A stretch of 64,000 bases of DNA. Origin: Pedobacter sp. GTDB taxonomy: Bacteria > Bacteroidota > Bacteroidia > Sphingobacteriales > Sphingobacteriaceae. A program made the position numbers and the translations under genes. The stretch is from NCBI RefSeq assembly GCF_031119335.1, contig NZ_JAVHXT010000013.1:1-64000 (forward strand). The letters are read 5' to 3'. Below the pieces are notes generated by a model. The model saw nothing but the letters and a program-made list of their open reading frames with translations, had not been told where the DNA came from and searched no databases. Shown here piece after piece: positions 38,578 to 56,958 of the stretch. The first letter of the stretch is position 1; every line of letters starts with the position of its first letter.

Positions 38578-38764
38578 CTAACCAAATCAACTAACCAAAC
38601 AGAAAACTAGTATGGAAAATTAACTGAAGAAAACTAGAGTTTGGCTAAACAAAAAAACCGGAGTGCGGGAACACTGCCGGCTTAATCTCCCAATGGGAGC
38701 TGTTTGGTCCAAATCAAAAAACTGTGTAAAGAACTTTCAATCAAAAACCAAACCTTACAAAAGT
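38578..38764 (+). ncRNA. Structured leader between fecR and second susC
   Basis: About 190 nt that the longest susC frame partly reads through. It contains hairpin 1 CCGGAGTG (38658-38665) / CACT-G-CCGG (38672-38680) with loop CGGGAA, hairpin 2 CTCCC-AAT-GGGAG (38687-38699), and GTTTGGT (38702-38708), which can pair either with ACCAAAC at 38594-38600 or with ACCAAAC at 38747-38753 next to the true start. A three-codon ORF ATG-GAA-AAT-TAA lies at 38611-38622. The layout suggests a regulatory leader; function is inferred only. Confidence 0.45.
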
Positions 38765-41700
38765 ATGCAAATTAATTTTTACGGTAAAATCCGGATGCTT
38801 TCTGGATTCTACCCGTCCAAATTGTTTCTAACCATGAAACTTACGGTAATCATTATGATGATTAGCTGCTTTCATATAAGCGCTAAAAGTTATTCTCAAA
38901 GTCTTAACTTAACAGGGAAAGATATTCCTTTGGCCAAAGCGCTGACCATGATCAGCGAACAAAGTGGACATTACCTATTCTACAAGTATAATGAACTTAA
39001 AGATGCAGAGCCTGTAACCATCAAATTAAAGAACGCCAGTTTAACCCAAGCTTTAAAAGAGGTGTTCAAAAATCAGCCTTTTACTTTTGCTATAGAACAG
39101 AAAACTATCGTTGTTACCAAAGTGATAGGTGAAGCTCCTAAAGCACCTGTTTTTATAGATATCAAAGGGAGGGTGTTGGGAGATAAAGGAACTCCCTTGC
39201 CTGGAGCTGGCATACGCGTTAAAAATGGAAGCCAAACAGCAGTAACTGATGCCAATGGTAATTTTAGCTTAAACAATTTGCCAGAAAACTCGGTAATTGT
39301 GGTAAGTTATGTAGGATATGTAACCCAAGAAATAGCTATCGGCAACAGAACCAATATTACGGTCACTTTGTTGGAAGATGCTGCAAGTCTTAATACTCTG
39401 GTAGTTGTGGGTTACGGTAAGCAAGAACGTAAAGATATTACCGGATCAATCAGTTCCATAGATTCAAAGAAAATACAAGATCAAGCGGTAGTTAGCTTAG
39501 ATAATGCAATGGCTGGCCAAATGGCTGGAGTGCAGGTTACGGCGGCAACTGGAGCACCAGGTGGTGGAGCAACGGTAAGGGTTAGGGGAGCAGGATCTTT
39601 ATCTGCAGGTAACGAGCCTTTGTATGTGGTAGATGGTTTTCCTGTAACCAACGATTTTAACCAGAGGAACAACCCTTTGAACACCATCAACCCCTCAGAT
39701 ATAGATAATATCCAAGTACTAAAAGACGCATCTGCCACTGCTATTTATGGTTCCAGAGGATCAAATGGTGTAGTTATCATCACCACAAAATCAGGCAAAA
39801 GCGGTGTTTCTAAAATTGATTTTAGCCTAAATACCGGAGTGCAACAAGTGGAAAAAACTTTAGATGTATTAAATGCTAGAGAGTTTGCATTGTTTGTGAA
39901 TGAAGCTAGAAATAATGCTTGGGTAAATTCTGGGGCGGGCAGGTCTACTACTGATCCAAACTCGGCAAGGCTTAACAACGTGATGTATTTATTACCAGCA
40001 TCTTTAAGTAATCCAGATGCTTTGGGTGAAGGTACAAATTGGCAGGATGAGATTTTTAGAAGTGCGCCAATGAGTAATTACCAGATTAATTTTTCTGGAG
40101 GAAATGAAAAAACGAAATACTTTGTTTCTGGTGGATATCTTTCTCAGGATGGTGTAGTCTTGGGTTCAGATTTGAAACGTTATTCTTTCCGTGTTAACGT
40201 CGAATCGCAAGTAAATAAGGTGGTAAAAGTTGGTGCAAACATTACACCTAGCTACACTTTTTCTAACCAGACTTTGGCCGAAGGCAACTGGCAAGGTGGT
40301 GGTATTATCCAATCTGCACTTACTGCAGGACCACATATGACACCTTACAATGCCGATGGTAGCTACACTAAAATTACAGGACTTGGTATAGGAACTAGTG
40401 AAGTAGATAATCCCGTAAAAATTGCCCGAGAGTATTTTCATCAACAAAGCAATATGAGATTATTGGGTACCGCTTATGCAGAGGCAAATATCATTAGCGG
40501 TCTTACGCTTAAAGCTTTGGTGGGTGCAGATATCAGAAGTTTTAGAGAACAGATTTTTAACCCTTCCATTATCAACCCAAACAGTGTAAATGATACAAAA
40601 TTGGCTACGGGAAACAGCAATACTAGCGAAAACAGAAATTGGCTGGCAGAGTTTACCTTAAACTATAACAAAAAAATTAATAAACATGCATTTGATGGTT
40701 TACTTGGTTATACCATTCAGCAAGAGAACATCGAAGCTAATGCGATAAGTGCTACCAATTTTCCAAATGATCAGATCAAAACGGTAAATGCTGCAGGTAC
40801 AATTACGAGTGCGCCGGCAACTTCAGAAGCTTGGGCATTACTTTCTTATTTAGCTCGTGTTAACTATAGCTATGACAATAAATACCTGCTAACGGCAACG
40901 TTAAGAACAGACGGTTCATCTCGTTTTGGATTTGATAACAGATATGGTGTTTTTCCTTCGGTATCTCTAGGTTGGAGAATTTCTGAAGAGAATTTCATGA
41001 AGAACGTAAACTGGATATCTGATCTGAAACTGAAAACCAGCTATGGTATTACGGGTAATAATTTTATCAGTAATTACGGTGCAATTGCCTTAACTACTAC
41101 CGATAACTACATTTTTGGTGCAAGCGGTGGTACGGTTAATAATGGAATTAGATTGGCAAATATTGCCAACAGTTTGCTAAGCTGGGAAAAAAATAAACAA
41201 TTAGATATTGGTTTGGAATTTGGGATATTGAAAAACAGGGTATCGATGTCGTTAGATTACTATAACAAAAGAACGTCAGATTTATTACTGAATGTTCCTA
41301 CACCAACTTTGACAGGTTATACCAATGCGTTACAAAATATTGGTGAAATACAGAACAAAGGATTTGAAGTAAGCGTAACCAGCAGAAATTTCGTAAATGC
41401 GTTTAAATGGACTACAGATTTTAATATTTCGACTAATAAAATCAAAGTGTTGGCATTAGGGCCAGATGGTTCAAGGATACTTTCCCGCCAAACTACTTTT
41501 GCTGCTGGCAACACCCATATAACAGAAATTGGCGCTGCACCAGGTTCATTTTTTGGCTACAAAGTAATAGGGGTTTATAGAGATCAAAATGATGTAGACA
41601 ATTCTGCAGTTATCAGAAATGCAAATGGAACGGTAAGCTCGAAACCAGGACAGTTGAAATTTGCAGATATTGATGGAGATGGTGTAATTACTGCTGACGA

Positions 41701-42247
41701 TAGGACTGGCATAGGTAGCCCATTTCCAGATTTTACTTATGGCATGACTAATAGTTTTGCTTACAAAGGGTTTGACTTTTCATTTACATTACAGGGCGTA
41801 CAAGGTTTTCAAGTATTAAATGCTGCAAGAAGGTTTTATGGAAATTACGCTGGTTCATATAATGTGCTAAGAAGTACTGCTAATGGTTGGGTATCTCCAA
41901 GTAGCCCAGGCGATGGGTTTACTCCCCAAATTGACCGAAATTTTGGTGCTTTAGGTATTGCTTCAGTAGTTAATAATGCAACTTCGGCTTTCGTAGAGGA
42001 CGGCTCTTTCCTTAGAATTAGAAATATCACTTTGGGCTATAATCTGCCTGCGTCAGTTGCAAAAAGTTTAAAAGTTGCCAATGCTAGGCTAAGCTTTACT
42101 ATTCAAAATGCCTTCACGTTTACCAATTATGAAGGTTATAATCCAGAAGTAAGTGTTGAGGGAGCTAACCCTTTAATGCCTGGAGTTGATTCGGGTGGTT
42201 ACCCGCTGGCACGCACATTTATGTTTGGTTTAAATTTTGGATTTTAA
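38765..42247 (+). CDS. SusC-type TonB-dependent receptor with STN signalling domain
   Basis: The long open frame begins at 38663, but the first 34 codons are leader; the start chosen is ATG 38765 (MQINFYGKIRML), which puts the signal helix (LTVIIMMISCFHISAKSYSQ) about 20 residues in. Order: signal, STN domain (LNLTGKDIPLAKALTMISEQ, later TIVVTKV) that contacts FecR, carboxypeptidase-regulatory-like domain (GTPLPGAGIRVKNGSQ), TonB plug (VVGYGKQERKDITGSIS, PLYVVDGFPV), and barrel ending TFMFGLNFGF. It imports oligosaccharide with the SusD just downstream and reports substrate through FecR/sigma. The STN domain separates it from the SusC at 23375. Confidence 0.95.
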   Translation: MQINFYGKIRMLSGFYPSKLFLTMKLTVIIMMISCFHISAKSYSQSLNLTGKDIPLAKALTMISEQSGHYLFYKYNELKDAEPVTIKLKNASLTQALKEVFKNQPFTFAIEQKTIVVTKVIGEAPKAPVFIDIKGRVLGDKGTPLPGAGIRVKNGSQTAVTDANGNFSLNNLPENSVIVVSYVGYVTQEIAIGNRTNITVTLLEDAASLNTLVVVGYGKQERKDITGSISSIDSKKIQDQAVVSLDNAMAGQMAGVQVTAATGAPGGGATVRVRGAGSLSAGNEPLYVVDGFPVTNDFNQRNNPLNTINPSDIDNIQVLKDASATAIYGSRGSNGVVIITTKSGKSGVSKIDFSLNTGVQQVEKTLDVLNAREFALFVNEARNNAWVNSGAGRSTTDPNSARLNNVMYLLPASLSNPDALGEGTNWQDEIFRSAPMSNYQINFSGGNEKTKYFVSGGYLSQDGVVLGSDLKRYSFRVNVESQVNKVVKVGANITPSYTFSNQTLAEGNWQGGGIIQSALTAGPHMTPYNADGSYTKITGLGIGTSEVDNPVKIAREYFHQQSNMRLLGTAYAEANIISGLTLKALVGADIRSFREQIFNPSIINPNSVNDTKLATGNSNTSENRNWLAEFTLNYNKKINKHAFDGLLGYTIQQENIEANAISATNFPNDQIKTVNAAGTITSAPATSEAWALLSYLARVNYSYDNKYLLTATLRTDGSSRFGFDNRYGVFPSVSLGWRISEENFMKNVNWISDLKLKTSYGITGNNFISNYGAIALTTTDNYIFGASGGTVNNGIRLANIANSLLSWEKNKQLDIGLEFGILKNRVSMSLDYYNKRTSDLLLNVPTPTLTGYTNALQNIGEIQNKGFEVSVTSRNFVNAFKWTTDFNISTNKIKVLALGPDGSRILSRQTTFAAGNTHITEIGAAPGSFFGYKVIGVYRDQNDVDNSAVIRNANGTVSSKPGQLKFADIDGDGVITADDRTGIGSPFPDFTYGMTNSFAYKGFDFSFTLQGVQGFQVLNAARRFYGNYAGSYNVLRSTANGWVSPSSPGDGFTPQIDRNFGALGIASVVNNATSAFVEDGSFLRIRNITLGYNLPASVAKSLKVANARLSFTIQNAFTFTNYEGYNPEVSVEGANPLMPGVDSGGYPLARTFMFGLNFGF

Positions 42248-42254
42248 AACTGTA

Positions 42255-43730
42255 ATGGACATGAAAAATTTTAAAACAATATACGCAACAATTCTAGTGC
42301 TTATCATTACAGCAAGTAGCTGCAGTAAAGATTTTTTAGATCGTGCACCTATTTCGCAAATGAACGGCAACAACTTTTATAAAACTGCCGAGGACATGAA
42401 AAATGCGCTTACTGCGGCTTATGGTGGTTTGCAATATGGTGGTTTATACTATTCATCTATGCATGTAATAGGCGATTTAAGGTCGGATAATACGGAAATC
42501 ACCAATCCAAATGCTGGTTCTGATTTGGTAGCGATAGATAACTTTCAAAATTTAGCAACTACCTCCATCAGTAGCACTACTTGGGCGGGTCATTATCAGG
42601 CCATCCAATCGGTTAATATTGTGATAGAGAAAATAGAAGCAGTAACTATGGACGCTAACTTAAAAGCCAGATATGCTGCAGAAGCTAAGTTTTTAAGAGG
42701 CTTGATGTACTTTAATTTGGTAAGGATTTTCGGTGATGTACCATTGGTTACTAAGGTCATCAACAATCCGCAAGAGGGATACGAATACGGAAGAAATCCT
42801 AGTGCCGAGGTTTATGCACAGATCATCAATGATTTAACGGATGCAGAAAATGTACTGCCACACGAGTTTACCGGTGCAGATATAGGACGTGCAACAAAAG
42901 GTGCAGCGGCAGCATTGTTAGGTAAAGTTTATCTAACGCAAAAAAGATGGGATTTGGCAGTTCCTCAACTGAAAAAAGTAATAGATAACGTGGCATTGAA
43001 TAAATATCAATTGCTACCAACTTATGCAAGCGTGTTTGGTATTGCCAACGAGAACGGCAGGGAGTCTATCTTCGAGGTACAGTTCAAAAAGGGCAGTGCA
43101 GGCGAGGGTAGTCCATATACCAACCAATTTGCGCCAATAGGTTCTGGAACAGCTGTGGTTGCTATTGGTAATCCGCTGGGACAAAATATTCCAACTGCTG
43201 ATATGAATAATGCCTACGAAGCTAATGATGTTAGAAAAGCGGTGTCAATGAGAAATAGTTACGTGCTTGGCGCAAATACGGTACAACATAATTATATAGT
43301 AAAATATTTGGGCGCTCCGGCAGCTAACCTAGATAGCGATAACAATTGGATTGTGTTGAGGTATGCCGATGTATTGTTGATGTATGCTGAAGCTTTGAAT
43401 GAGCAAGGTTACGTTGCCGATGGTCCTGCATTTACTTATTTAAATCAGATCAGAAATAGAGCTGGATTAGGAAGTAAGACCAGTAATAATTCAAATGCTT
43501 CACTTAGGGTTGCAGATCAAGTTGCTTTTAGATTGGCTATAGAGCAAGAAAGACGAGTAGAATTAGCTTTCGAAGGTCATCGTTGGTTCGATTTGGTTCG
43601 TACTGGAAGAGCACAAGCGGTAATGGGCGGTAAGGGAATGCAATCTCACCACGACTTGTTTCCAATTCCTCAAAGCCAAATCGATATCAACCCTTCTAAA
43701 ATTAAACAGAATACAGGGTACGTAAATTAA
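42255..43730 (+). CDS. SusD/RagB-type surface glycan-binding lipoprotein
   Basis: The open frame extends to 42237 inside the susC end, but ATG 42255 or 42261 (MKNFKTIYATIL) gives a normal lipoprotein signal with lipobox ITASSCSKDF. SusD signs: LDRAPISQMNGNNFYKTAED, AEAKFLRGLMYFNLVRIFGD, and the C-terminal LRYADVLLMYAEAL and RVELAFEGHRWFDLVRTG. It partners the SusC 8 nt upstream. A terminator follows at 43740. Confidence 0.95.
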   Translation: MDMKNFKTIYATILVLIITASSCSKDFLDRAPISQMNGNNFYKTAEDMKNALTAAYGGLQYGGLYYSSMHVIGDLRSDNTEITNPNAGSDLVAIDNFQNLATTSISSTTWAGHYQAIQSVNIVIEKIEAVTMDANLKARYAAEAKFLRGLMYFNLVRIFGDVPLVTKVINNPQEGYEYGRNPSAEVYAQIINDLTDAENVLPHEFTGADIGRATKGAAAALLGKVYLTQKRWDLAVPQLKKVIDNVALNKYQLLPTYASVFGIANENGRESIFEVQFKKGSAGEGSPYTNQFAPIGSGTAVVAIGNPLGQNIPTADMNNAYEANDVRKAVSMRNSYVLGANTVQHNYIVKYLGAPAANLDSDNNWIVLRYADVLLMYAEALNEQGYVADGPAFTYLNQIRNRAGLGSKTSNNSNASLRVADQVAFRLAIEQERRVELAFEGHRWFDLVRTGRAQAVMGGKGMQSHHDLFPIPQSQIDINPSKIKQNTGYVN

Positions 43731-43739
43731 TAGATATAG

Positions 43740-43800
43740 ATCATCCCACTTAAAAAGCTAACGTAAATAAGTTTAATAAGTGGGGTGATTTATCTTTTTT
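43740..43800 (+). terminator. Terminator-like hairpin after second susD
   Basis: ATCATCCCACTT (43740-43751) pairs with AAGTGGGGTGAT (43778-43789, one bulge) around an AT-rich loop, then TATCTTTTTT. It probably lowers rather than blocks expression of the downstream enzymes, which start at 43827 with no other clear promoter. Confidence 0.65.
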
Positions 43801-43826
43801 CTGTTCACCATTATCTCCGTTAATTA

Positions 43827-45287
43827 ATGAAAAGATTATTAATTTCTTTCTTAGTGGCTATTGCTTGTCCTTTTTTAGCACTTGCACAAGTGCAAACCCT
43901 TAATCAAAAAGATAGTGGATATCGAGGGATTTGGTATAGCAACCAGCCATCTAACGACGAATATGTTTATAAATACAGTGGCGGTTTGGGAACTTACCCA
44001 GCCAACCATTATCCATTTTCCGTTTACGTTAAAGCAGTAAATAAAACTTTTTTTTGTTACGGAGGTGCCGATGCCGAGGGTACAACCTTGCTGCATACCG
44101 TCTCCTATTTTGATCATAACACGGGCATGGCGCCAAAACCTACCGTAGTGCTAGACAAAAAGACTAACAATGCACACGACAATCCGGTGCTCAATATCGA
44201 TAAAGACGGATATATTTGGTTGTTTTCTACTGCTCACGGTACCAACAGCCCTTCTTACGTACATAAAAGCGTAAAGCCTTATGATATCGAAACCTTTGTA
44301 AAAGTTGATGTAACTAAGTTGGTAGATGGTAAAGTAGTGTCAATGGATAACTTTTCTTATCTACAAGCTTGGTATCAGTCCAATCATGGTTTCCTAAACC
44401 TTTTTACGCATTACGATAGAAAAGTAATTCCTAATCAACCATCAAAACCGAGACGAACCATTAGCTACATGACCAGTGCCAACGGCATTAATTATAGCGA
44501 ATGGAAAGATTTGGCTACTATAGCCGAAGGTCACTATCAAACCAGTGGAAAATTTGGTGATAAAATAGCAACCTCCTTCAATTTTCACCCGGTAAAAGAA
44601 GGAGAGAACGGATTAAATTACCGTACCAATCTCTATTACATTCAGACCAGAGATTTTGGAAAAACTTGGCAGAATGTTAAAGGACAAAATCTTACAATTC
44701 CGTTAAAGGAGGTACAGAATGATGCTTTGGTCAAAGACTATCAATCGCTAGGACTAAATGTTTACATCAACGATCTGGCTTTTGATAACGCTGGAAATCC
44801 CATCATTTTATATATCACCAGTAAAGGTTACCAAGCAGGACCAGCTAATGCGCCTTACACTTGGAATACCGCAAGGTATACTGGTACCGATTGGGAGATT
44901 TTGCCTGTAACTACTTCCGATAATAATTACGATATGGGCTCTTTGGTAGTAGATGAAAAAGGGACTTGGTTAATTATTGGCCCCACGGCAACAGGACCGC
45001 AGGCCTTTAATACCGGTGGCGAAATGGTGTTGTGGACCAGTAGAAACCAAGGGAAAAGCTGGAAATCGAAGAAACTGACCGAAAATAGTATCTATAACCA
45101 TTCGTATAGTAGAAAACCTGTAAATGTACATCCAGATTTTTTTGCTTTCTGGGCCGATGGTCATGGAAGAGAACGTTCGATTTCTCGTCTGTACTTTGCC
45201 GATAAAAAAGGAAATGTGTATCAGTTGCCAACAAAAATGGAAACGGATATGGTAAAGCCAACTAAACTAAAGCAGCCTAAAAAGTGA
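43827..45287 (+). CDS. Secreted BNR_4-type seven-bladed propeller, candidate polysaccharide lyase or glycosidase
   Basis: A 486-residue protein with signal peptide 1-20 (ends LALAQ). The family start DSGYRGIWYSNQPSNDEY and KYSGGLGTYPANHYPFSVY is typical of BNR_4 proteins; later blocks are NNAHDNPVLNIDKDGYIWLF, FSYLQAWYQSN and HPDFFAFWADGHGRE. From family knowledge, BNR_4-like propellers include ulvan lyases (PL24/PL25) and GH145 rhamnosidases, so a lyase cutting next to a uronic acid, or an exo-glycosidase, is plausible. Conserved His residues that could be catalytic are visible (NNAHDN, STAHGT). It supplies a rationale for the GH88 enzymes. Its stop overlaps the next start (GTGA). Confidence 0.72.
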   Translation: MKRLLISFLVAIACPFLALAQVQTLNQKDSGYRGIWYSNQPSNDEYVYKYSGGLGTYPANHYPFSVYVKAVNKTFFCYGGADAEGTTLLHTVSYFDHNTGMAPKPTVVLDKKTNNAHDNPVLNIDKDGYIWLFSTAHGTNSPSYVHKSVKPYDIETFVKVDVTKLVDGKVVSMDNFSYLQAWYQSNHGFLNLFTHYDRKVIPNQPSKPRRTISYMTSANGINYSEWKDLATIAEGHYQTSGKFGDKIATSFNFHPVKEGENGLNYRTNLYYIQTRDFGKTWQNVKGQNLTIPLKEVQNDALVKDYQSLGLNVYINDLAFDNAGNPIILYITSKGYQAGPANAPYTWNTARYTGTDWEILPVTTSDNNYDMGSLVVDEKGTWLIIGPTATGPQAFNTGGEMVLWTSRNQGKSWKSKKLTENSIYNHSYSRKPVNVHPDFFAFWADGHGRERSISRLYFADKKGNVYQLPTKMETDMVKPTKLKQPKK

Positions 45288-46768
45288 AGAAATATAGCAT
45301 TATAGCAGCTTGTTTAATGTTTTTATTTGCTTGTAGCAAACCAGCAGAGGAGCTTGAAACAATAGATAATGTTCAGCTCAAAATCAATTTGCTAAAAGTA
45401 GAGGTTTTGGCCGATAATCTTAACGTGCCTTGGGATATTTGCTATGCTGACGATCACTCGCTGTGGTTTACCGAGCAGGAAGGTTTTGTGTCGAGAATAG
45501 ACTTACAAACAGGCGAACAGAAAAAGCTTCTCAAAATTGATGAAGTTTGGCATAAACGTACCGCAGGCTTGTTGGCTTTGGCGGTACATCCAAATGTAAA
45601 AGAAAAGCCTTATGTGGTAATGAACTATACGCTAAAACGGGATAGTTCGATTTTTAACAAGTTGGTACGCTACGAATTTGATGGAGATACCTTGAAAAAT
45701 CCGAAAGTACTCTTAGAGATTGATGGTTTTACTGCACACAATGGTTCTCGTATCGCTTTTGGTCCAGACCAAAAAATCTATTGGGCCACAGGCGATGCCT
45801 ACAATGGAGAAAATGCTCAAAATACTACCAGTTTAAATGGCAAAATTCTCCGTTTAAATATTGATGGTAGCATACCTAAAGATAACCCTAAACCTCATAG
45901 CTATGTTTGGGCAAGTGGCTTTAGAAACATGCAAGGGCTTACTTTTTCTGATAAAGGATTATTGTACACCTCAGAGCATGGCGATGCCATTGAAGATGAA
46001 ATTAATCTGATACAAAAAGGTGCCAATTATGGTTGGCCAGCTATCGAAGGTATTCATGATTTACCAATCGAAAAGCAATTTGCAGCTCAGCACAAAACTA
46101 CAGAACCTATCAAATCTTGGACACCAGTAATCGCTCCTGCTGGCATAACCTATTACGGAAGTTCGGTAATAGGAGAGTGGTCTAATAGCTTATTGTTGAC
46201 CACGCTAAAAGGTAAAAGTTTAAGGGTAATTAAATTGAGTAACGATGGCAAGAAAGCTATTGATGAGGAAATTTTCTTTGAAAACTATTATGGTAGACTA
46301 AGAGATGTTTGTACGGATAAAAATGGTGTAGTTTACGTAGCTACCAGTAACAAGGATTGGAACCCAACTCCCGGTTTTCCATTGGCTGGCGATGACAAAA
46401 TACTAAAGATTAGTGTAACAGATAAGGCCATAGGCGAACCCTTAAAAGGTGTTAAACCTAATGAAACAAGTCTGCTTTCGGGCAAAACACTTTATAATAA
46501 TTATTGTGCTTCTTGCCATAAAGAAGATGGAACAGGCTTGTCTGGTGTATTTCCAGCATTAAAAGCTTCTGCATTGGTTAAAGCTAAGCCCGATGAATTA
46601 ATCAATGTTTTACTTAAAGGTATTCCCAACCAGAATGGTACGGCAGCAATGCCTGCTTTCAACTTTTTAAAAGACGAAGAAGCGGCCGTTATTCTTTCTT
46701 ACATCAGGCAAAATTGGGAAAATGCAGCCAGTCCCGTATCGGCGGCTCAAATCAAACAAAATAGATAA
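45284..46768 (+). CDS. PQQ-dependent sugar dehydrogenase fused to cytochrome c, lipoprotein
   Basis: A 494-residue periplasmic lipoprotein starting with GTG; lipobox FLFACSKPAE. Residues about 30-390 form a soluble-glucose-dehydrogenase-like propeller (NVPWDICYADD, EGFVSRIDLQTGE, TSEHGDAIEDEINLI, GANYGWP). A class I cytochrome c domain follows with heme motif C408-A-S-C411-H412 and a likely axial Met in GTAAMPAFNF. Family members oxidise aldose sugars to lactones with PQQ and pass electrons to the heme. The gene is coupled to the BNR_4 gene (4-nt overlap) and to the transporter (TAATG), so the sugar released by this locus is a likely substrate; this is inference. Confidence 0.88.
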   Translation: MKKYSIIAACLMFLFACSKPAEELETIDNVQLKINLLKVEVLADNLNVPWDICYADDHSLWFTEQEGFVSRIDLQTGEQKKLLKIDEVWHKRTAGLLALAVHPNVKEKPYVVMNYTLKRDSSIFNKLVRYEFDGDTLKNPKVLLEIDGFTAHNGSRIAFGPDQKIYWATGDAYNGENAQNTTSLNGKILRLNIDGSIPKDNPKPHSYVWASGFRNMQGLTFSDKGLLYTSEHGDAIEDEINLIQKGANYGWPAIEGIHDLPIEKQFAAQHKTTEPIKSWTPVIAPAGITYYGSSVIGEWSNSLLLTTLKGKSLRVIKLSNDGKKAIDEEIFFENYYGRLRDVCTDKNGVVYVATSNKDWNPTPGFPLAGDDKILKISVTDKAIGEPLKGVKPNETSLLSGKTLYNNYCASCHKEDGTGLSGVFPALKASALVKAKPDELINVLLKGIPNQNGTAAMPAFNFLKDEEAAVILSYIRQNWENAASPVSAAQIKQNR

Positions 46769-47973
46769 TGTCGACAACAAAAAATAAGTTGAGCACGGCA
46801 CTCAAAAGCTTAGTGCCTGGTATTATTACCGCGGCAGTGGTTTTTGGACCAAGTAAAATGACCATTACTTCTCGTTTAGGAGCAGATTATGGTTATTCCA
46901 TGTTATGGATAGTAGTTGTAGCCATTTTCTTTATGCTCGTATTCACAAATATGGGTGCAAGAATAGGGCTGAGCAGTTCATTAAGTTTGTTAACCCACAT
47001 CAGAAATAAATGGGGTAAAGGTGCTGCCATAGCTATCGGATTGGGTGTGTTTTTGGTAACCACCTCGTTTCAGGCGGGTAACTCCATTGGGGTAGGCATT
47101 GCCATTGCCGAAGCCAGCGGCACTAAACCTTGGATTTGGGTAGTAATATTCAATGTACTTGGTTTAGCACTACTCTTTTTTAGAAGTTTCTACAAAGTTT
47201 TAGAACGTTTGATGATAGCCCTCGTAGGCTTAATGCTACTAGCTTTTGTAACTACTTTGTTCTTATCAAACCCATCTGTTTCAGCAATTGCAAAGGGATT
47301 TGTTCCGAGCTATGAACCTAGTTCCGCTGCATTGTTGATTGCTTTTGTTGCTTCCTGCTTTTCTATTGTAGGTGCTTTTTATCAATCGTATTTGGTACAG
47401 GAGAGTAAGAGCAACGGCGCTACACCATCAAATAAAAGTACCACAGGTATTTTACTGTTGGGATTTATGAGTGCGGTAGTGATTATCTGTGCTGCGGCGG
47501 TGTTACATCCTCAAGGCATAAAGGTAAATAGCGCTTCAGAAATGTCTAAAGCCTTACAACCGCTGTTTGGCGATTATGCAGCCGACTTGTTCTTGGTCGG
47601 ACTTTTCGGAGCATCATTTTCATCTTTGGTAGGTAATGCAACCGTAGGAGGAAGCTTGCTTGGCGATGCCTTTGGTTATGGTAATCATTTAAATTCTAAA
47701 AAGGTTCGTCTGTTCATTGCGTTGGTCATGATTTGTGGAGCATCTATCTCCCTAATTTTTGGCAAACTACCGCTAGAACTGATTGTGTTTGCGCAAAGTG
47801 TGACCATTTTCTTGGTACCCTTTATTGGTTGGGCCATGTATAGTATCGCCAACGACGAGCAAATTATGGGTAAACATAAAAACAGTCCTTACGTGAAAAT
47901 TGTGGGTAGCCTCGGTTTATTGTTATTGATTGCATTGGCAGTGTTCAATTTTTACGAGCTGTTTTTGAAATAA
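46768..47973 (+). CDS. NRAMP-superfamily transporter lacking the metal-binding motif
   Basis: A 401-residue inner-membrane protein with about 11 hydrophobic helices. The N-terminal part aligns with NRAMP helix 1: where MntH has DPGN, this protein has Gly27-Pro28-Ser29-Lys30 (VFGPSKMTITSRLGADYGYS). The helix 6 MPH motif is likewise absent (SIVGAFYQSYLVQ). In known NRAMPs these residues bind Mn2+ or Fe2+, so ordinary metal import is unlikely. The gene starts inside the stop of the dehydrogenase gene (TAATG) and is followed by sugar-acid-type enzymes, which suggests transport of an organic substrate or product. The family is firm, the substrate is open. Confidence 0.8.
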   Translation: MSTTKNKLSTALKSLVPGIITAAVVFGPSKMTITSRLGADYGYSMLWIVVVAIFFMLVFTNMGARIGLSSSLSLLTHIRNKWGKGAAIAIGLGVFLVTTSFQAGNSIGVGIAIAEASGTKPWIWVVIFNVLGLALLFFRSFYKVLERLMIALVGLMLLAFVTTLFLSNPSVSAIAKGFVPSYEPSSAALLIAFVASCFSIVGAFYQSYLVQESKSNGATPSNKSTTGILLLGFMSAVVIICAAAVLHPQGIKVNSASEMSKALQPLFGDYAADLFLVGLFGASFSSLVGNATVGGSLLGDAFGYGNHLNSKKVRLFIALVMICGASISLIFGKLPLELIVFAQSVTIFLVPFIGWAMYSIANDEQIMGKHKNSPYVKIVGSLGLLLLIALAVFNFYELFLK

Positions 47974-47997
47974 AATTATTGAATAAAGTTAAAAGAA

Positions 47998-49014
47998 ATG
48001 GAAGATTTAGTAGCGTTGGAACGAAGGTTAACCACACCTTCAGCAGCTTTAATAGAAGATATTAAAAAAATTAGGGGCGATATAGTGCTGTTGGGTATAG
48101 GCGGAAAAATGGGGCCGAGTATGGGCAAATTATTAGTTGATGGAATTAGATTGGCTGGCATAAACAAACGTGTAATTGGTGTTTCCAGATTTTCTGATGA
48201 GAAAGCAAAAGCCGAATTACAAGCTAACGGAATAGAAACTATTAGTTGTGATTTGCTTAACGATGAAGAACTTTTTGCACTGCCAGATGCCAAAAATGTG
48301 ATTTACTTGGCTGGCAACAAATTTGGTACTACAGGTAAGGAGAGCTTTACTTGGGCTATGAATGCTTATTTGCCAGGTCGTGTGGCCGAAAAATACAAAC
48401 AGGCCAATATCGTTGCTTTTTCGTCTGGCAACGTTTTACCTTTTGTACCTGTTACTTCGGGAGGTGTTGCCGAAGATACTACACCCGAACCTATCGGCGA
48501 ATATGCACAATCTTGTTTGGGCCGTGAACGTATTTTTGAGTACTTCGCCAAGAAAAACCAAACTCCAACATTAATCTACAGATTAAATTATGCAGTAGAT
48601 TTTAGGTACGGAGTGGTTTTGGAAATTGCCAAGTCGGTTAAGGCAGGTAAGGCTATTGATTTAAGTACCGAAAATGTAAATGTAATATGGCAAGGCGATG
48701 CCAACGAAATAGCCATCCGATCCTTGCTGCATTGCCGTACTCCTGCTAAAATTTTAAACGTAACAGGTCCCGAAATTTTATCGATCAGATGGATTGCTCA
48801 ACAGTTTGGTGTGCTTTTCGGTATCGAACCAAAATTTATTAATGAACCAGTAGGTACAGCATTGTTAAATAACGCATCAGAGAGCCATCGCTTATTCGGT
48901 TATCCAAAAGTTACCATTAGGGAGATTATTGATATTACCGCAGCATGGTTAAATGCAGGTGGCGACGAGTTTGGTAAAGCAACACATTTTCAAGAAAGGG
49001 GAGGGAAATTCTAA
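47998..49014 (+). CDS. NAD-dependent epimerase/dehydratase-like SDR without the catalytic lysine
   Basis: A 338-residue Rossmann-fold protein of the extended SDR type: LLGIGGKMGPSMGKLL at the nucleotide site, then VIYLAGNKFGT, FSSGNVLPFVP and a C-terminal substrate region. The position of the YxxxK pair reads Tyr169-A-Q-S-Cys173, so the usual lysine is replaced by cysteine. The first glycine motif GIGGKMG also differs from GxxGxxG. It might use a different chemistry, bind without catalysis, or act as a lyase or isomerase. It is 24 nt after the transporter and coupled by TAATG to the DapA-like gene, so the two probably act in one pathway. Confidence 0.72.
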   Translation: MEDLVALERRLTTPSAALIEDIKKIRGDIVLLGIGGKMGPSMGKLLVDGIRLAGINKRVIGVSRFSDEKAKAELQANGIETISCDLLNDEELFALPDAKNVIYLAGNKFGTTGKESFTWAMNAYLPGRVAEKYKQANIVAFSSGNVLPFVPVTSGGVAEDTTPEPIGEYAQSCLGRERIFEYFAKKNQTPTLIYRLNYAVDFRYGVVLEIAKSVKAGKAIDLSTENVNVIWQGDANEIAIRSLLHCRTPAKILNVTGPEILSIRWIAQQFGVLFGIEPKFINEPVGTALLNNASESHRLFGYPKVTIREIIDITAAWLNAGGDEFGKATHFQERGGKF

Positions 49015-50078
49015 TGAAATATTTAAGCACTGAACTAAATCAGCATTTACAACAGGGTACTGTAATACCGGCACATCCCTTAGCTTTAAAAGAAAATAGA
49101 ACTATTGACGAGGAACAGCAACGTTTGCTCACCAGATATTACGTAGCCAGTGGTGCTGGTGGAATAGCAGTTGGTGTTCATTCTACGCAATTCGAAATCA
49201 GAGATCCTGGGGTAAACCTTTTTGCCACCGTGTTGCAATGGGCGGCAGAAGAAATTAGTAAAGCTAATTTAAACAGACCTTTCCTAAAAATAGCAGGTAT
49301 TTGTGGGCCAACCGCACAAGCCATGACAGAAGCTAAAATAGCGGTTAGTTTAGGTTATGATATGGGCCTGTTAAGCATGGGTGGTTTACAAGGTTGGGCC
49401 GAGGCGCAAATTTTAGAGCGGGTAAAAGAGGTTGCTAACATCATTCCCGTGTTTGGTTTCTATTTACAACCCTCAGTAGGCGGTCGTATTTTTAGTTATG
49501 ATTTTTGGCTGCAATTTGCGGAAATCCCGAATGTAATGGCGATTAAATGTGCTTCGTTTAACCGTTACCAAACTATTGATGTAATAAGGGCGGTTTGCAA
49601 CAGCAGCAGATGTAACGAGATTGCGCTTTACACAGGCAACGATGATAATATTGTTCCAGATTTACTGACCAACTACCGTTTTATGGTAAATGGCAGTGCT
49701 GTAGAAAAGCGCTTTGTTGGTGGTTTGCTTGGACATTGGGCCGTGTGGACAAATAAAGCCGTGAGCCTGTTGCAAGAAATTAAAGCTTACGATAAAACCC
49801 CAACGGATAAAGCATTAGCAGAATTATTAACCAAAGGAATTGAGGTTACAGATGTAAATGCGGCGCTTTTTGATCCTGCAAATCATTTTCACGGTTGTAT
49901 TCCTGGTATTCATGAAATGTTAAGGCAACAAGGGCTGATGAAAGGAATTTGGTGCTTAAACCCAAATGAAAAACTATCAGAAGGTCAGTTGGATGAAATA
50001 GAACGTGTTCATCGGGATTATCCCCACTTAAATGATGACGAATTTGTTCATGAATTTTTAGCTAGGGAGGTACGATAA
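49014..50078 (+). CDS. DapA-family (DHDPS/NAL-like) lyase
   Basis: A 354-residue class I aldolase-fold protein. The Schiff-base lysine is Lys178 in VMAIKCASFNRY, and the family tyrosine is Tyr150 in VFGFYLQPS. AGICGPTAQAMTEAKIAVSLGYD marks the middle of the barrel. It is about 50 residues longer than DapA, with an extended C-terminal part. The locus contains no other lysine-pathway gene, so it is more likely an aldolase or dehydratase for a 2-keto-3-deoxy sugar acid. It shares start/stop nucleotides with both neighbours (TAATG each side), which implies coupled translation. Confidence 0.82.
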   Translation: MKYLSTELNQHLQQGTVIPAHPLALKENRTIDEEQQRLLTRYYVASGAGGIAVGVHSTQFEIRDPGVNLFATVLQWAAEEISKANLNRPFLKIAGICGPTAQAMTEAKIAVSLGYDMGLLSMGGLQGWAEAQILERVKEVANIIPVFGFYLQPSVGGRIFSYDFWLQFAEIPNVMAIKCASFNRYQTIDVIRAVCNSSRCNEIALYTGNDDNIVPDLLTNYRFMVNGSAVEKRFVGGLLGHWAVWTNKAVSLLQEIKAYDKTPTDKALAELLTKGIEVTDVNAALFDPANHFHGCIPGIHEMLRQQGLMKGIWCLNPNEKLSEGQLDEIERVHRDYPHLNDDEFVHEFLAREVR

Positions 50079-52024
50079 TGAAAATTGTTGGCGCAATAAC
50101 TTCTGCAGTGCTTTTTTTGTTGGTGCAAATTACTTCTGCACAAGAAAAGGGCAAATTTGTAAATCATGGGCCACAACTTACTGCGGCAATGATACAGGGT
50201 AGCATTTTTGTAAAAGACAGTAAAAATAATCTATTATTATATACCGTTGTAAGGGGCGAACCTGCGCATTTGTTGGCTTTTAATGTAGCTAGTAAGGCTT
50301 TGGTCTTAGATGTTCCTTTGCCTAAAACAGATGGAGCTTGGGACTTGGCACAATCAACAGATGGTACACTTTACATTCCGGGTGCGGGAGGTAAGCTTTT
50401 TAGCCACCTGCCAGGAACTAAAACTATTAAAGATTTAGGTAATGCCCTGCCATCAGAAACGTATTTGTGGAACCTTGCTGCGGGAAATAATGGCGAAGTT
50501 TTTGGAGCCACTTATCCGGGCTGTAGGGTGTTTAGGTATCACCCAAAAGATGGATTTAGCGATTTGTTTAATGCTCCTTTAGTTGACGGCGAAAACTATG
50601 TGCGCAGTTTGGCCTTTGATAAAAAACGTAATAAGCTTTATGCAGGCGTAGGTTCTCATGCACATCTTATCGAGGTAGACCTCATTGCAAAAACCAAAAA
50701 GGAAATACTGCCCGAAAAATATCAGGATAGGGAGTTTGTTTACGGTTTGGAATTGATAACTGGTAGCGATGGCGTAGATCGTCTACTGGCTTTGCTTACC
50801 GCAGGCAACACAACTTTGGTATACAACCTTAAAACACAACAAGTAGAGCAGGAAGTAGTAGGAATGGACATGAAAGCTGTGGGTACTCATCTTAAAAATA
50901 CCATCTATACCTCCAAAAATAGTTTGATGAGTTTTGATGCCGGCAAAAATATAAGTTCATCAATTCAATTGGCAACAGAGAGTGGTGCTGCACATGCCTT
51001 CTTTAATGATCAAAAAGGAAGTTTTTATTGGTTAAATGCAAAAGGTATTTTATCGAAATATCAGTTTAAAAGTAAAAAAGTAGAGCGTACAAAACTTACT
51101 ATCCCAGAGCAGCCTATTCCTATCAACGCGATTATGGTGGGGCCAGACCAAAAAGTATGGACAGGTGGTTATTTAGCGGGTAGTCATGCTACATTCGATC
51201 CAAAAACAGGAAAGAATAAAAAATATCGAGGGTTAGACCAAACCGAGGGCATGACCTTTTTGGGAGATAAAATCTATTTTGGTATTTATCCCAAAGGGAA
51301 GTTTTATGTGTTTGATACGACCAAACCGTGGAACCTATCTAATAAAAACCCTAAGGAGGCCTTTGTAGAAGAGGGGCAAAGTCGATCTTTTGCCGTACAT
51401 GCCATAGCTGATAAGCATCAATTATATTTTGGAACTGTTCCTGAATATGGAAAGCTGGGAGGGATATTAATTGGGTATAATGAAAAGACCAATCAGCATC
51501 AGTCTTATGGCGAAGTGCTACCGAAACAATCGGTAGTAAGTTTAACCAGTAAGGGAAATATACTCGTAGTAGGTGGTTCTATTTCTGGGGGATTGGGTAT
51601 TAGACCAGAACGTAAAGAAGCAGAATTATTGATTTGGGATATTGAGAGTAATAAAGCATTGTTAAAACTTGTACCTGTTGCTGGTGCTGCGGCCATCACT
51701 TCGCTAATTAATGGACCAGACGGAAATATTTGGGGCGTGGCAGACGGACAGTTATTCATTTTGGATATTCATCAGCAAAAAGTATTAACCATCCATAAAC
51801 TTTACGATTATCCCCCTTTTGGAAGTCATATCTGGAGAAGTGCTTTTATGGCTATCCATCCTTCGGGACAAATCTATGGAACGGATAATGGACTGTTGTT
51901 TAAACTAGATCCAATAACTAAAGTATGTACCGTTATTGAAAAAGGTGCTGGACTAATGTCGATGGATCCAAGCGGAAAAATTTATTTCAAGAGAGGTACA
52001 GAATTATGGTCGTACACACCTTAA
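50078..52024 (+). CDS. Secreted beta-propeller protein of unknown function
   Basis: A 648-residue protein with signal peptide 1-21 (ends TSAQ). It consists of repeated four-strand blades (for example GAWDLAQSTDGTLYIPG, GEVFGATYPGCRVFRY, NAIMVGPDQKVWTGGY, ITSLINGPDGNIWGVADGQL) over its whole length, enough for one large or two small propellers. No heme, PQQ or catalytic motif was recognised. Genes on both sides, DapA-like lyase and GH20, belong to glycan use, so glycan binding or an unassigned lyase or glycosidase activity are possible. Its function is unknown. Confidence 0.7.
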   Translation: MKIVGAITSAVLFLLVQITSAQEKGKFVNHGPQLTAAMIQGSIFVKDSKNNLLLYTVVRGEPAHLLAFNVASKALVLDVPLPKTDGAWDLAQSTDGTLYIPGAGGKLFSHLPGTKTIKDLGNALPSETYLWNLAAGNNGEVFGATYPGCRVFRYHPKDGFSDLFNAPLVDGENYVRSLAFDKKRNKLYAGVGSHAHLIEVDLIAKTKKEILPEKYQDREFVYGLELITGSDGVDRLLALLTAGNTTLVYNLKTQQVEQEVVGMDMKAVGTHLKNTIYTSKNSLMSFDAGKNISSSIQLATESGAAHAFFNDQKGSFYWLNAKGILSKYQFKSKKVERTKLTIPEQPIPINAIMVGPDQKVWTGGYLAGSHATFDPKTGKNKKYRGLDQTEGMTFLGDKIYFGIYPKGKFYVFDTTKPWNLSNKNPKEAFVEEGQSRSFAVHAIADKHQLYFGTVPEYGKLGGILIGYNEKTNQHQSYGEVLPKQSVVSLTSKGNILVVGGSISGGLGIRPERKEAELLIWDIESNKALLKLVPVAGAAAITSLINGPDGNIWGVADGQLFILDIHQQKVLTIHKLYDYPPFGSHIWRSAFMAIHPSGQIYGTDNGLLFKLDPITKVCTVIEKGAGLMSMDPSGKIYFKRGTELWSYTP

Positions 52025-52034
52025 ACCTATAAGT

Positions 52035-54575
52035 ATGAAAAGAAGAATAGCCTTTTTTAGTGTACTTTTCTTTATAGTGCAAGCGGCAAAAGCACAATCT
52101 TTAGAAGACTTAAACCATATCCAAATTAAATGGAAAATGGGAGCTAATGATCATTTGCAAAAAGGACAGTTCAGTGCGGCTTTCCTCATCACTAATAACG
52201 GAAACACAGCAGTTAATTTAAGTGATTGGATACTTTGTTTTTCCTACCCAAGGGAAATTAAAGAAGTCATTAGCAAAAATGCCAAATTTGAGAACAAGGG
52301 TGGCGAATTTGTGGTAATGAATGTGCTGAAAGGTTTTGGTATAATCGATGGTAAAAAGAAATTAGAGGTAAATTACTTAGCAAAAGGTAAAACCTTAAAT
52401 ATTACCGATGCTCCTTCAGGTTTGTATTTCGTATCCAAAACTAACCCTGGCAAGTTATTTACTGTAAAGAACTTTGCTTCGGACTTAAGTACGTTGAGTG
52501 CCGAAAATGAAATGTTGGCTGCTGCCCAGCGTTATCAAAAGTTCGCCAATACCAATGATATCAATATTGGCCAGCTTCATAAAGTAATACCCAAGCCCGT
52601 TTCTTATATAGAAAACAAAGGTTTTTTTAAGCTGAATGCTAATACGAAATTAATTGCCGATTCAGCTTTTGTAAACGAAGCAAAGCTCTTTAACCAAGAA
52701 ATTTCATCCCTTTTGGGAACTAAACTTAATATAGCTAAAAGCCAAGCCAATAATGCAGTGGTAATAAAACTAGCCGCAGGTTTGTCTTTAGAAGAATATC
52801 GTTTAACTGTTGCCGATACAGGTGTACAGGTAGAAGCTTCCACGCCACAAGGAGCATTTTATGGTTTACAATCTTTAAAAATGTTGATGCCTACAAACGT
52901 TTGGGCTAAGAGAAGCAAAGAAATAGCAATCTCTAAGGTTGAAATCAACGATTATCCTCGTTTTGCTTATCGTTCCTTAATGCTAGATGTGGCTAGGAAT
53001 TTTCAACCGAAAGCAGAAATATTGAAGTTGCTCGATCTTTTGGCACTGTATAAAATCAATACCTTCCATTTTCATTTAAATGATGATGAAGGTTGGCGAT
53101 TGGAAATTAAGTCTTTGCCAGAACTTACAGAACTGGGCGCCAAGAGAGGTCATACTTTTGATGATGCTACACATTTAAAGCCTGCTTATGGTTCTGGTGC
53201 AGATACAACTAGCTTGCCTGGCAGCGGATATTACACACAAGAAGATTTCATAGAAATCTTGAAGTACGCTAAAGACAGGCATATCACTGTAATTCCCGAG
53301 TTGGAAACACCAGGTCATGCTAGAGCTGCGGTAAAGGCAATGGATTATCGGTATAGGAAATTGATGGCACAGAAAAAACATCAAGAAGCCATCGAATATC
53401 TTTTAAGGGATACTTCAGATCAATCCGTTTACAAATCAGTACAAGGTTATAAAGATAATGTGATGAATGTGGCACTGCCATCTACCTATCGTTTCATCAA
53501 TACTGTAGTTGATGAACTGGTTTCACTCTATCAAAAAGCTGGTGCTCGGCTAAGTACGGTGCACATGGGCGGAGATGAAGTACCACAGGGGGTGTGGGAA
53601 AAATCTCCGGCCATTGCTCAATTAATGACAAATAAAAAAATCATTACTTATGATGATTTATGGTATTACTACCTCGGCAAAGTAAATCAACTACTAAAAA
53701 GTAAAAACTTACACCTTTCGGGTTGGGAAGAAGTTGCTATGCGGAAAGTAAAAGATGGCGAGAAATTGAACTACATCGCTAATCCAGACTTTTTAGGAGA
53801 AAATTTTCAGGTTTACGTATGGAACAATGTATGGGGTGGTGGTTCCGAAGATTTGGCCTATAGATTGGCTAATGCGGGTTACAAGGTGGTATTGTCGGCC
53901 GTTACCAATTATTATTTCGATTTGGCCTATCAGAAAGATACGCATGAACCGGGTTTGTACTGGGGATCTTATGTAGATACAGATAAACCATTTTATTTCT
54001 CACCTTTTGATTATTACAAAACAGCAAGGGAAGCACTTGATGGCACTTTGCTGAACAGAGATGTTGTAAAAGGCAAGGAGAGACTAACCGAAGAGGGTAA
54101 GAAAAATATTGTCGGCATACAAAGTCAATTATGGTCGGAAAAAATATATAACGCTCAAAGTATGCAGTATATGTTGCTGCCTAAATTAATTGCCTATGCC
54201 GAAAGGGCTTGGACTACCGAACCCGATTGGTCTAAAGAGGTCGATAGTGTAAAATCATGGCAGTTATACCTTGACGATTGGAGCCGCTTTGCCAATGTAG
54301 TAGGTAAAAGAGAGCTAAACCGTCTATCCTATTATCATGATGGATTTAACTTTCGGGTACCACCACCAGGTGTTATCATAGATCAAGGTAAAATAAAAGC
54401 CAACGTGCAGTTTCCAGAATTGGTTATTAGATATACTGCCGATGGTGCTGAGCCTCATGCTAAAAGCGAAATCTATCGTAAAGAAATCTCAGCTAAAGGC
54501 ATCATTAAATTTAAAGCTTTTACTACGAGTGGAGCAGCCAGCAGAACAATAATGGTACAAAATCCTAAAATGTAA
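52035..54575 (+). CDS. GH20 beta-N-acetylhexosaminidase, chitobiase-type
   Basis: An 846-residue secreted hexosaminidase. Signal peptide 1-21 (ends AAKAQ). The N-terminal CHB_HEX domain is at about 25-170 (SAAFLITNNGNTAVNLSDW), the GH20b domain about 175-325, the TIM barrel about 330-745 with FHLNDDEGWRLEI and the catalytic pair Asp514-Glu515 in HMGGDEVPQG, and a C-terminal beta domain about 770-846 (FRVPPPGVIIDQG, IRYTADGAEP). It removes terminal GlcNAc or GalNAc with substrate-assisted catalysis. This suggests that the target glycan, or a host or fungal companion glycan, contains N-acetylhexosamine. It ends the long plus-strand run, 10 nt after the propeller gene. Confidence 0.95.
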   Translation: MKRRIAFFSVLFFIVQAAKAQSLEDLNHIQIKWKMGANDHLQKGQFSAAFLITNNGNTAVNLSDWILCFSYPREIKEVISKNAKFENKGGEFVVMNVLKGFGIIDGKKKLEVNYLAKGKTLNITDAPSGLYFVSKTNPGKLFTVKNFASDLSTLSAENEMLAAAQRYQKFANTNDINIGQLHKVIPKPVSYIENKGFFKLNANTKLIADSAFVNEAKLFNQEISSLLGTKLNIAKSQANNAVVIKLAAGLSLEEYRLTVADTGVQVEASTPQGAFYGLQSLKMLMPTNVWAKRSKEIAISKVEINDYPRFAYRSLMLDVARNFQPKAEILKLLDLLALYKINTFHFHLNDDEGWRLEIKSLPELTELGAKRGHTFDDATHLKPAYGSGADTTSLPGSGYYTQEDFIEILKYAKDRHITVIPELETPGHARAAVKAMDYRYRKLMAQKKHQEAIEYLLRDTSDQSVYKSVQGYKDNVMNVALPSTYRFINTVVDELVSLYQKAGARLSTVHMGGDEVPQGVWEKSPAIAQLMTNKKIITYDDLWYYYLGKVNQLLKSKNLHLSGWEEVAMRKVKDGEKLNYIANPDFLGENFQVYVWNNVWGGGSEDLAYRLANAGYKVVLSAVTNYYFDLAYQKDTHEPGLYWGSYVDTDKPFYFSPFDYYKTAREALDGTLLNRDVVKGKERLTEEGKKNIVGIQSQLWSEKIYNAQSMQYMLLPKLIAYAERAWTTEPDWSKEVDSVKSWQLYLDDWSRFANVVGKRELNRLSYYHDGFNFRVPPPGVIIDQGKIKANVQFPELVIRYTADGAEPHAKSEIYRKEISAKGIIKFKAFTTSGAASRTIMVQNPKM

Positions 54576-56902: not shown

Positions 56903-56958
56903 GGATGAGTGAGTATTCATTTAAAATGAAGTGTCTTTAAGCTATAAGCATTGAACAA

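Follow-up and report, generated by a model that had tools for sequence, protein, structure and literature searches.

A run of genes on a 64,000-nucleotide stretch of a Pedobacter sp. genome (contig NZ_JAVHXT010000013.1, positions 1 to 64,000; the whole stretch analysed is called the window) represents, as far as searched, an undescribed catabolic module, in which the folds are known ones but three active sites are altered. These belong to a carrier of the NRAMP fold, an odd extended short-chain dehydrogenase/reductase (SDR) and a DapA-like protein (DAPL), whose genes are preceded by a SusC/SusD pair, a BNR_4 propeller and a pyrroloquinoline quinone (PQQ)-type dehydrogenase of the GSDH family fused to cytochrome c, and followed by a second propeller protein (PROP) and a glycoside hydrolase of family 20 (GH20). 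The widely conserved unit consists of the SDR and DAPL only, with BNR_4 and PROP confined to few loci. At a probability of roughly 0.36, the reading favoured here is that of an operon for glycan utilisation, the SDR-DAPL core of which belongs to an oxidative route for amino-sugar acids that in Bacteroidota would be fed by periplasmic oxidation.

Conservation of the SDR-DAPL pair

The comparisons are based on a DAPL scan of genome contigs, which yielded at least 578 relatives; only the 80 best-scoring loci were used, so that close relatives are over-represented. Of these, 44 are from Bacteroidota (in a broad sense, as judged from titles and including Fodinibius, L043, which NCBI may place apart) and 36 from Bacillota (Paenibacillaceae). 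Counts out of 97 loci additionally cover L089 to L105, where L089 is a second copy in this genome, L090 a divergent relative (~34%) and L091 a duplicate of L087, and the alignments also contain the window protein and the L091/L087 duplicate; L001 to L008 were excluded as short duplicates or weak matches. Contigs end near the pair in L026, L033, L054, L061, L062 and others, where absences are therefore soft, and the SusC/SusD and ABC (ATP-binding cassette) labels at other loci were, like all signal-peptide calls, assigned by eye.

In all of the 80 loci except L081, i.e., in 79, DAPL is preceded by an SDR gene, and 77 loci remain when the same strand and a distance of 400 nt are demanded (L024, L081 and L086 fail this rule). 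Among 296 Bacteroidota genomes, relatives of DAPL are present in five (E 3.2e-43 or better; two more, distant, were seen at 5.2e-4 and 7.4e-4), and relatives of the SDR (E 1e-20) occur in exactly the same five. A preliminary description of this DNA had conceded that its proposal would lose ground if the genes were rarely neighbours in other genomes, which is thus not what was found for the pair. For the trio of transporter, SDR and DapA-like gene, whose joint conservation across Bacteroidota that description had put forward for searching, the picture is divided, as an NRAMP-like gene lies upstream in 34 of the 44 Bacteroidota loci but in none of the 36 from Bacillota, and the complete six-gene set from BNR_4 to PROP recurs in 5/80 loci only (L010, L011, L014, L028 and L046). 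The gene for GSDH-cytochrome c shows the same restriction (24/44 and 0/36), which makes oxidation plus NRAMP import a feature of Bacteroidota only. BNR_4 itself is found in five and PROP in 11 of the 80 loci.

With respect to the carrier, NRAMP proteins of at least 48% identity occur in only three of the five genomes, in four copies of which two are in this genome. The remaining NRAMP proteins of the 296 genomes (E 1e-20) do not exceed 35% identity, a value reached in another of the five, on a contig other than that of its DAPL. The divergence of DAPL is correlated with that of the SDR (r = 0.90, n = 97) and of the NRAMP-like protein (r = 0.77, n = 38), and 0 of 999 permutations reached either value; within Bacteroidota only, the coefficients are 0.85 (n = 45) and 0.73 (n = 35), respectively. 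These correlations partly reflect common descent.

DAPL is also encoded in 20 plasmid records from Bacillota, Planctomycetota, Alphaproteobacteria and Actinomycetota (47-68% identity). The SDR gene is next to it or one gene away in 11/11 annotated plasmid loci, and also near it in unannotated Microvirga and Nonomuraea stretches, the pair having been seen in five phyla. PROP homologues are found at SDR-DAPL loci of Bacillota, Streptomyces and Nonomuraea.

A second GSDH-NRAMP-SDR-DAPL set, 48-69% identical, exists in this genome (G000:C12:66500-85500; L089 4765-11019). It is oriented divergently to a SusCD-like pair of its own, and a Gfo/Idh gene comes after it. The latter is a homologue of a gene beside the pair in L019, for which a GH109-like reading was set aside as unsettled, since its best solved matches are Gfo/Idh oxidoreductases (E ~4e-11). 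In L039, L040, L049, L082 and L086, long open frames antisense to the SDR gene were grouped as a family by clustering and are probably a composition artefact.

Three folds with altered active sites

The window SDR just passes the cut-off of the Pfam Epimerase family (21.2 vs 20.9 bits), and its structural model (predicted local distance difference test, pLDDT, 84) has the Rossmann fold of extended SDRs, with TerB (6nd7, Z 30.8) and sugar-nucleotide epimerases (Z 27-28) as its nearest matches. While Tyr169 is kept in 97/97 and Ser142 in 96/97 sequences, and Arg176 and Glu177 are invariant, the lysine of the YxxxK motif is present in none of them, its position being occupied by Cys in 81, Thr in 11 and other residues in five. 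The early characterisation of this protein as an odd SDR is thereby borne out. The annotated records seen name it no more than an oxidoreductase or an epimerase family protein.

DAPL, called dihydrodipicolinate synthase family or hypothetical protein in the same records, is recognised by neither Pfam nor NCBIfam at E 0.01, and its sequence matches in the PDB are weak. Its model (pLDDT 92) nevertheless adopts the TIM-barrel fold of dihydrodipicolinate synthase (DHDPS; 3pb2, Z 33.9, root-mean-square deviation 2.2, 295 aligned), as had been anticipated from its DapA-like sequence, and the structure matches also include human 4-hydroxy-2-oxoglutarate aldolase and NanA. K178 (98/98 sequences) and Y150 (95/98) align with the lysine and tyrosine of NanA, which we take to be the Schiff-base and a catalytic residue, respectively. 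In the DHDPS/N-acetylneuraminate lyase (NAL) family a GTTGE/GSTGE loop holds the carboxylate of the keto acid. This loop reads VH[ST]TQ in DAPL, with His56 in 98/98 sequences. DAPL thus shares the fold, the Schiff-base lysine and the tyrosine with these class I aldolases, but differs from them in lying below Pfam/NCBIfam detection, in its altered loop with an invariant histidine and in being paired with an SDR. As judged from model and alignment, it is likely a Schiff-base aldolase of the DHDPS fold.

Fold and weak sequence similarity to DHDPS and N-acetylneuraminate lyase could also be read as a role in lysine synthesis or sialic acid cleavage. However, lysine synthesis is to our knowledge near-universal, whereas a close DAPL relative is found in just 5/296 Bacteroidota genomes. 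As DAPL moreover fails to match the profiles of either enzyme family and is nearly always accompanied by the SDR, and as no nanE/nanK-type family was found among the window genes scanned, such a role appears highly improbable.

In the NRAMP family the metal is liganded by the Asp and Asn of the DPGN motif in the first transmembrane helix and by the Met of the MPH motif in the sixth. All of these positions are changed in the module carrier, in agreement with its first description as a non-metal NRAMP: in an alignment of 38 sequences, DPGN is replaced by GP[SG][KS] (GPSK in the window), with Asp to Gly in 38/38, Asn to Lys in 32 and to Ser in six, and the Met position is Ser in 38/38, while the solved structure 7qia retains the Asp. 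Membership in the Pfam Nramp family, to which the NRMT magnesium transporters also belong, is not in question (231 bits vs a cut-off of 29.8). A positive residue in the former metal site would suit an anionic cargo.

Alternatively, the protein might import metal, in the ordinary or Mg-type manner, as a cofactor for the neighbouring enzymes, the organic substrate being taken up by another carrier. The NCBIfam Nramp_1 match above cut-off is consistent with this, as are the metal transporters that form its best solved relatives and, according to the available text of PMC4072509, the transport of Mg by some relatives. The loss of every ligand position, in particular of an Asp that 7qia keeps, argues against it, as does the restriction of the close clade (at least 48% identity) to genomes with SDR-DAPL among the 296. 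In addition, nine of the 11 annotated plasmid loci, from other phyla, have an ABC, tripartite or major facilitator superfamily carrier instead (none was seen in Mesobacillus and Aquisphaera), and the NRAMP of the Bacteroidota clade was not found in any of the plasmid loci L094 to L105. Metal import therefore seems a rather improbable function of this protein.

Oxidation, substrate clues and the proposed route

The GSDH protein aligns with 3a9g (E 4e-54) and contains the cytochrome-type sequence CASCH (CxxCH). It matches the soluble aldose/glucose PQQ dehydrogenases, i.e., 3a9g and relatives, over the length of the propeller, but differs from them by the fused cytochrome c, a lipoprotein-like start and its place behind SusC/SusD. 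Extracytoplasmic oxidation looks recurrent in Bacteroidota, as 30/44 of their loci encode an oxidoreductase of the GSDH, DUF7133/cupredoxin, GMC or FAD type, with export judged by eye.

The main alternative to the amino-sugar-acid route, somewhat unlikely but still a serious contender, follows the preliminary description. A neutral sugar or uronate would be oxidised and dehydrated to a 2-keto-3-deoxy acid, perhaps at some loci by an exported enzyme of the enolase superfamily; after import and adjustment by the SDR, DAPL would split this acid into pyruvate and an aldehyde, and the M20 and serine dehydratase genes found at other loci would serve otherwise. The enolase superfamily includes sugar-acid dehydratases, and a member with an export-signal-like start (by eye) occurs in 10/44 Bacteroidota loci, all ten retaining KxK, Asp269, Glu300/301 and Asp321, to which we presume their usual roles can be assigned. 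This alternative is furthermore consistent with the DHDPS/NAL fold and the conserved Lys/Tyr of DAPL, with a mandelate-racemase gene in the Nitratireductor locus and with the GH88 family in the window locus, as GH88 products become 4-deoxy-5-keto uronates. However, the enolase family is missing from 34/44 Bacteroidota and 36/36 Bacillota loci, the GTTGE-type loop of DAPL is replaced and carries an invariant histidine, and M20 and serine dehydratase genes are tightly linked to the pair in three phyla. Of the periplasmic oxidative route that had been envisaged at the outset, the conserved module of a likely periplasmic oxidase, carrier, SDR and aldolase can be retained for Bacteroidota, while its 2-keto-3-deoxy acid is supported in part, by the loci with the enolase-superfamily gene, and its lactone is hypothetical. 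In L025, L032 and L038, ceramidase-like and DUF1080-like genes (3-keto-glycoside hydrolase type) precede the pair (by eye), a hint that 3-keto sugars may feed it in some species.

Unsupervised clustering of the genes around the 80 loci, with groups named in part by eye, yielded as top groups the SDR, NRAMP and SusCD-like proteins, followed by a regulator, GSDH and an M20 deacylase, and also ranked ABC permease-like proteins, Gfo/Idh oxidoreductases and both L-serine dehydratase subunits high. The M20 representative falls above cut-off into the amidohydrolase subfamily TIGR01891, and the dehydratase subunits exceed those of the SdaA/SdaB equivalogs. M20 genes occur in 23 of the 97 loci (7/44 Bacteroidota, 14/36 Bacillota, 2/17 others) and the L-serine dehydratase alpha gene in 18 (two Bacteroidota, 15 Bacillota, one other), and most of them lie within 3 kb of DAPL (22/23 and 16/18, respectively) and on the same strand (22 and 17). 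As a yardstick, the 4.36 Mb of this genome contain a single serine dehydratase and three homologues of M20, so that ~0.5% and ~1.4% of 20-kb stretches, respectively, would include one by chance, by our own arithmetic and for loci that are non-independent. The association extends over three phyla (Bacteroidota, Bacillota, Actinomycetota), and a Prescottella plasmid combines SDR, DAPL and M20 with L-serine ammonia-lyase and a regulator homologue, the latter weak at 83 bits. Genes resembling nagB (seven loci), nagA (four) and agaS (three, the match in L030 being weak at 72 bits) are found in 10 distinct loci of the 97, some of which also have a carrier resembling NagP and kinase and aldolase genes of the tagatose type; lying further from the pair and, apart from NagA, below specific cut-offs, they are weaker evidence. 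Together with the GH20 gene of the window, the M20, L-serine dehydratase and, loosely, NagA/NagB/AgaS-like neighbours point to a nitrogen-bearing sugar. This was unforeseen in the preliminary description, and in our opinion the candidate substrates should be widened to amino sugars.

The clustered regulator, with weak matches to GGDEF-like and Crp-type helix-turn-helix domains (e.g., L030 13898-15253), is encoded beside SDR-DAPL in 30/97 loci, 29 of them from Paenibacillaceae; the weak homologue is that of Prescottella, and another was seen in Nonomuraea.

The same M20 (TIGR01891) and SdaA/SdaB matches, above cut-off and closely linked, would also fit a conjugate of which the pair processes one part, while M20 and serine dehydratase free and burn an amide-bound serine or similar residue, as on serine-amidated uronic acids. 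This is judged improbable, as no obvious serine-amide substrate is common to soil Bacteroidota, Paenibacillus and actinobacteria, and as the nag/aga-like genes hint at hexosamine.

According to the favoured amino-sugar-acid route, the SusC/SusD, BNR_4/PROP, GH88 and GH20 proteins, whose families are observed, would bind and cut a glycan with N-acetylhexosamine and uronic acid, and the PQQ/cytochrome c dehydrogenase would turn the freed sugar, presumably in the periplasm, into a sugar acid and pass the electrons to the respiratory chain. The NRAMP-fold carrier, with the residues described above, would take in this acid, probably with protons, and the SDR would use NAD(P) to create a ketone in it. 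DAPL, the catalytic residues of which are in place, may then form a Schiff base at the ketone and cleave the chain by a retro-aldol reaction. Were the substrate a 2-acetamido sugar acid, the nitrogen-bearing product would be N-acyl-serine or its semialdehyde, and after cleavage an M20 deacylase and L-serine dehydratase could produce pyruvate, acetate and ammonia; homologues of both enzymes accompany the pair at other loci, and this genome encodes such homologues outside the window locus. In the chemistry that we consider to link all parts best, the SDR would make a ketone of the 2-acetamido sugar acid and DAPL would cut it so that carbons 1 to 3 leave as N-acetyl-serine semialdehyde, to be processed by a reductase, M20 and serine dehydratase. 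Hexosaminuronic acids would give the same fragment by ordinary 2-keto-acid cleavage. The fully specified version, in which a hexosamine is oxidised outside the cytoplasm, imported by the NRAMP-fold protein, converted to a ketone by the lysine-less SDR and split by the aldolase into a triose and an N-acyl-serine (semi)aldehyde, is unlikely to be right in all its parts.

Several observations weigh against the amino-sugar-acid route. On the side of the enzymes, the SDR may not be a dehydrogenase at all if judged by its missing YxxxK lysine, the carrier scores 85 bits against the 50-bit cut-off of NCBIfam NF037982 (divalent metal transporter), and PQQ synthesis was not found in the host genome with a pqqC model, which, however, matched none of the control genomes either. 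With respect to distribution, GSDH and NRAMP are absent from all Bacillota loci, 10/44 Bacteroidota loci lack NRAMP, at least L016, L025, L032, L038 and L077 of which have upstream sequence, and GH20 has no homologue in the other loci compared. M20 and serine dehydratase genes, finally, are beside the pair neither in the window nor in most Bacteroidota loci (7 and 2 of 44), and the NagB, AgaS, NagP and tagatose labels are below specific NCBIfam cut-offs, which only the NagA representative passes, with only 3/7 NagB-like, 1/4 NagA-like and 0/3 AgaS-like genes lying within 3 kb of DAPL, which slightly lowers the probability given to the route.

The gene run, its surroundings and related pathways

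All six open reading frames from 43827 to 52024 were confirmed from the sequence (Table 1), and the reading of the junctions together with Pfam substantiated the tight linkage first reported downstream of SusC/SusD. BNR_4 and GSDH are joined by a GTGA overlap (45284), and TAATG junctions connect GSDH with NRAMP (46768), SDR with DAPL (49014) and DAPL with PROP (50078), with a 24-nt gap between NRAMP and SDR. Although the six genes stand, the extent of the set has to be revised, as the run continues with GH20 as its seventh gene, 10 nt after PROP, and as SusC is preceded by genes for a GH88-like protein, an extracytoplasmic function (ECF)-type sigma factor and FecR. The order is thus GH88-like, sigma, FecR, SusC, SusD, BNR_4, GSDH-cytochrome c, NRAMP, SDR, DAPL, PROP, GH20. 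A homologue of the GH88-like protein (73% identity) sits after the module in L011 and L046.

Table 1. Features of the locus in the window
Feature	Position	Strand	Basis of assignment
GH88-like unsaturated-uronyl hydrolase, possible member of same locus	35422..36660	+	Pfam GH88; best PDB sequence match 3wiw (GH88), E 2.5e-98
ECF-type sigma factor	36762..37343	+	Pfam Sigma70 r2/r4
FecR-type anti-sigma	37423..38577	+	Pfam FecR, FecR_C
SusC-like TonB-dependent receptor	38663..42247	+	Pfam Plug, CarbopepD_reg_2
SusD-like lipoprotein	42237..43730	+	Pfam SusD_RagB, SusD-like_3
BNR_4 propeller, signal-peptide-like start (by eye)	43827..45287	+	Pfam BNR_4 4.6e-14
PQQ-type aldose dehydrogenase (GSDH) with C-terminal cytochrome c, lipoprotein-like start (by eye)	45284..46768	+	Pfam GSDH 4.5e-77, cytochrome c
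NRAMP-fold carrier without metal ligands	46768..47973	+	Pfam Nramp 2.7e-68
Odd extended SDR, Lys of YxxxK lost	47998..49014	+	97-sequence alignment; model pLDDT 84, fold matches
DapA-like putative Schiff-base aldolase (DAPL)	49014..50078	+	Conserved K178/Y150; model pLDDT 92, DHDPS fold
Second propeller protein (PROP), signal-peptide-like start (by eye)	50078..52024	+	No Pfam family above its cut-off
GH20 beta-N-acetylhexosaminidase	52035..54575	+	Pfam Glyco_hydro_20 7e-95

The BNR_4 propeller is a possible glycan lyase or glycosidase. PROP, the family of which recurs near SDR-DAPL in L048, L094, L095, L098, L103 and L106 (Bacillota, Actinomycetota), may be an uncharacterised carbohydrate-active enzyme. 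The 96-nt spacer between SusD and BNR_4 (43731-43826) contains a stem-like inverted repeat (CCCACTT...AAGTGGG) followed by a T-rich stretch, which could be a terminator or attenuator inside the operon. A riboswitch near the carrier was set aside, as Rfam detects nothing in the window other than a tRNA at the window edge. A further glycan locus occupies the adjoining region (6355-34614) and comprises another GH88-like gene, DUF2264, a malectin-containing GH2, two SASA esterases, DUF5017, a fasciclin-domain protein and a D-mannonate-oxidoreductase-like SDR, and downstream of the module (56294-60653) a second sigma/FecR-like pair is followed by a TonB-type outer-membrane protein (by eye).

With respect to described systems, pathways of the Weimberg/Dahms and 2-keto-3-deoxygluconate (KDG) aldolase types share with the module the initial oxidation and a DapA-fold aldolase, and no kinase was seen in the module either. 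They differ from it by their sugar-acid dehydratase, none of which was detected in the window module by Pfam and NCBIfam scans, and by lacking the deacylase and serine dehydratase that accompany the pair at other loci. The nearest described path found is the oxidative chitin utilisation (ong) pathway of Pseudoalteromonas prydzensis, which, according to the available text, comprises TonB-dependent uptake, a periplasmic hexosaminidase (OngA), the sugar-acid intermediate GlcNAc1A and a dedicated inner-membrane carrier, and in which the amino-sugar acid is deacetylated and deaminated much as amino acids are broken down (PMC9537276). As far as described there, oxidation is due to a lytic polysaccharide monooxygenase, import to a carrier of the sodium/solute symporter family, and the subsequent steps to a D-aminoacylase-type OngB, a pyridoxal phosphate (PLP)-type OngC and a KDG kinase (PMC9537276), whereas the module has a PQQ-type dehydrogenase, an NRAMP-fold carrier and an SDR with Schiff-base aldolase, and, at other loci, M20 and an Fe-S serine dehydratase. 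The window genes scanned include neither an OngB-type deacetylase nor an OngC-type PLP deaminase or KDG kinase, although no search for these was made in the remaining window genes or elsewhere in the genome. For the gene set of the module itself, no description was met in the open-licence literature searched, as far as its text was available, which is not proof of absence.

A functional assignment of the SDR-DAPL pair would correct the generic names under which both proteins are currently annotated, and at least 578 public genome stretches encode a DAPL relative. If the carrier does import a sugar acid, an organic cargo would be added to the NRAMP fold. If the route via N-acyl-serine holds, amino-sugar nitrogen would exit via serine, and kinase, NagA and NagB would be unnecessary; the assignment might also account for the use of oxidised amino sugars as fuel by soil bacteria that do not phosphorylate them.

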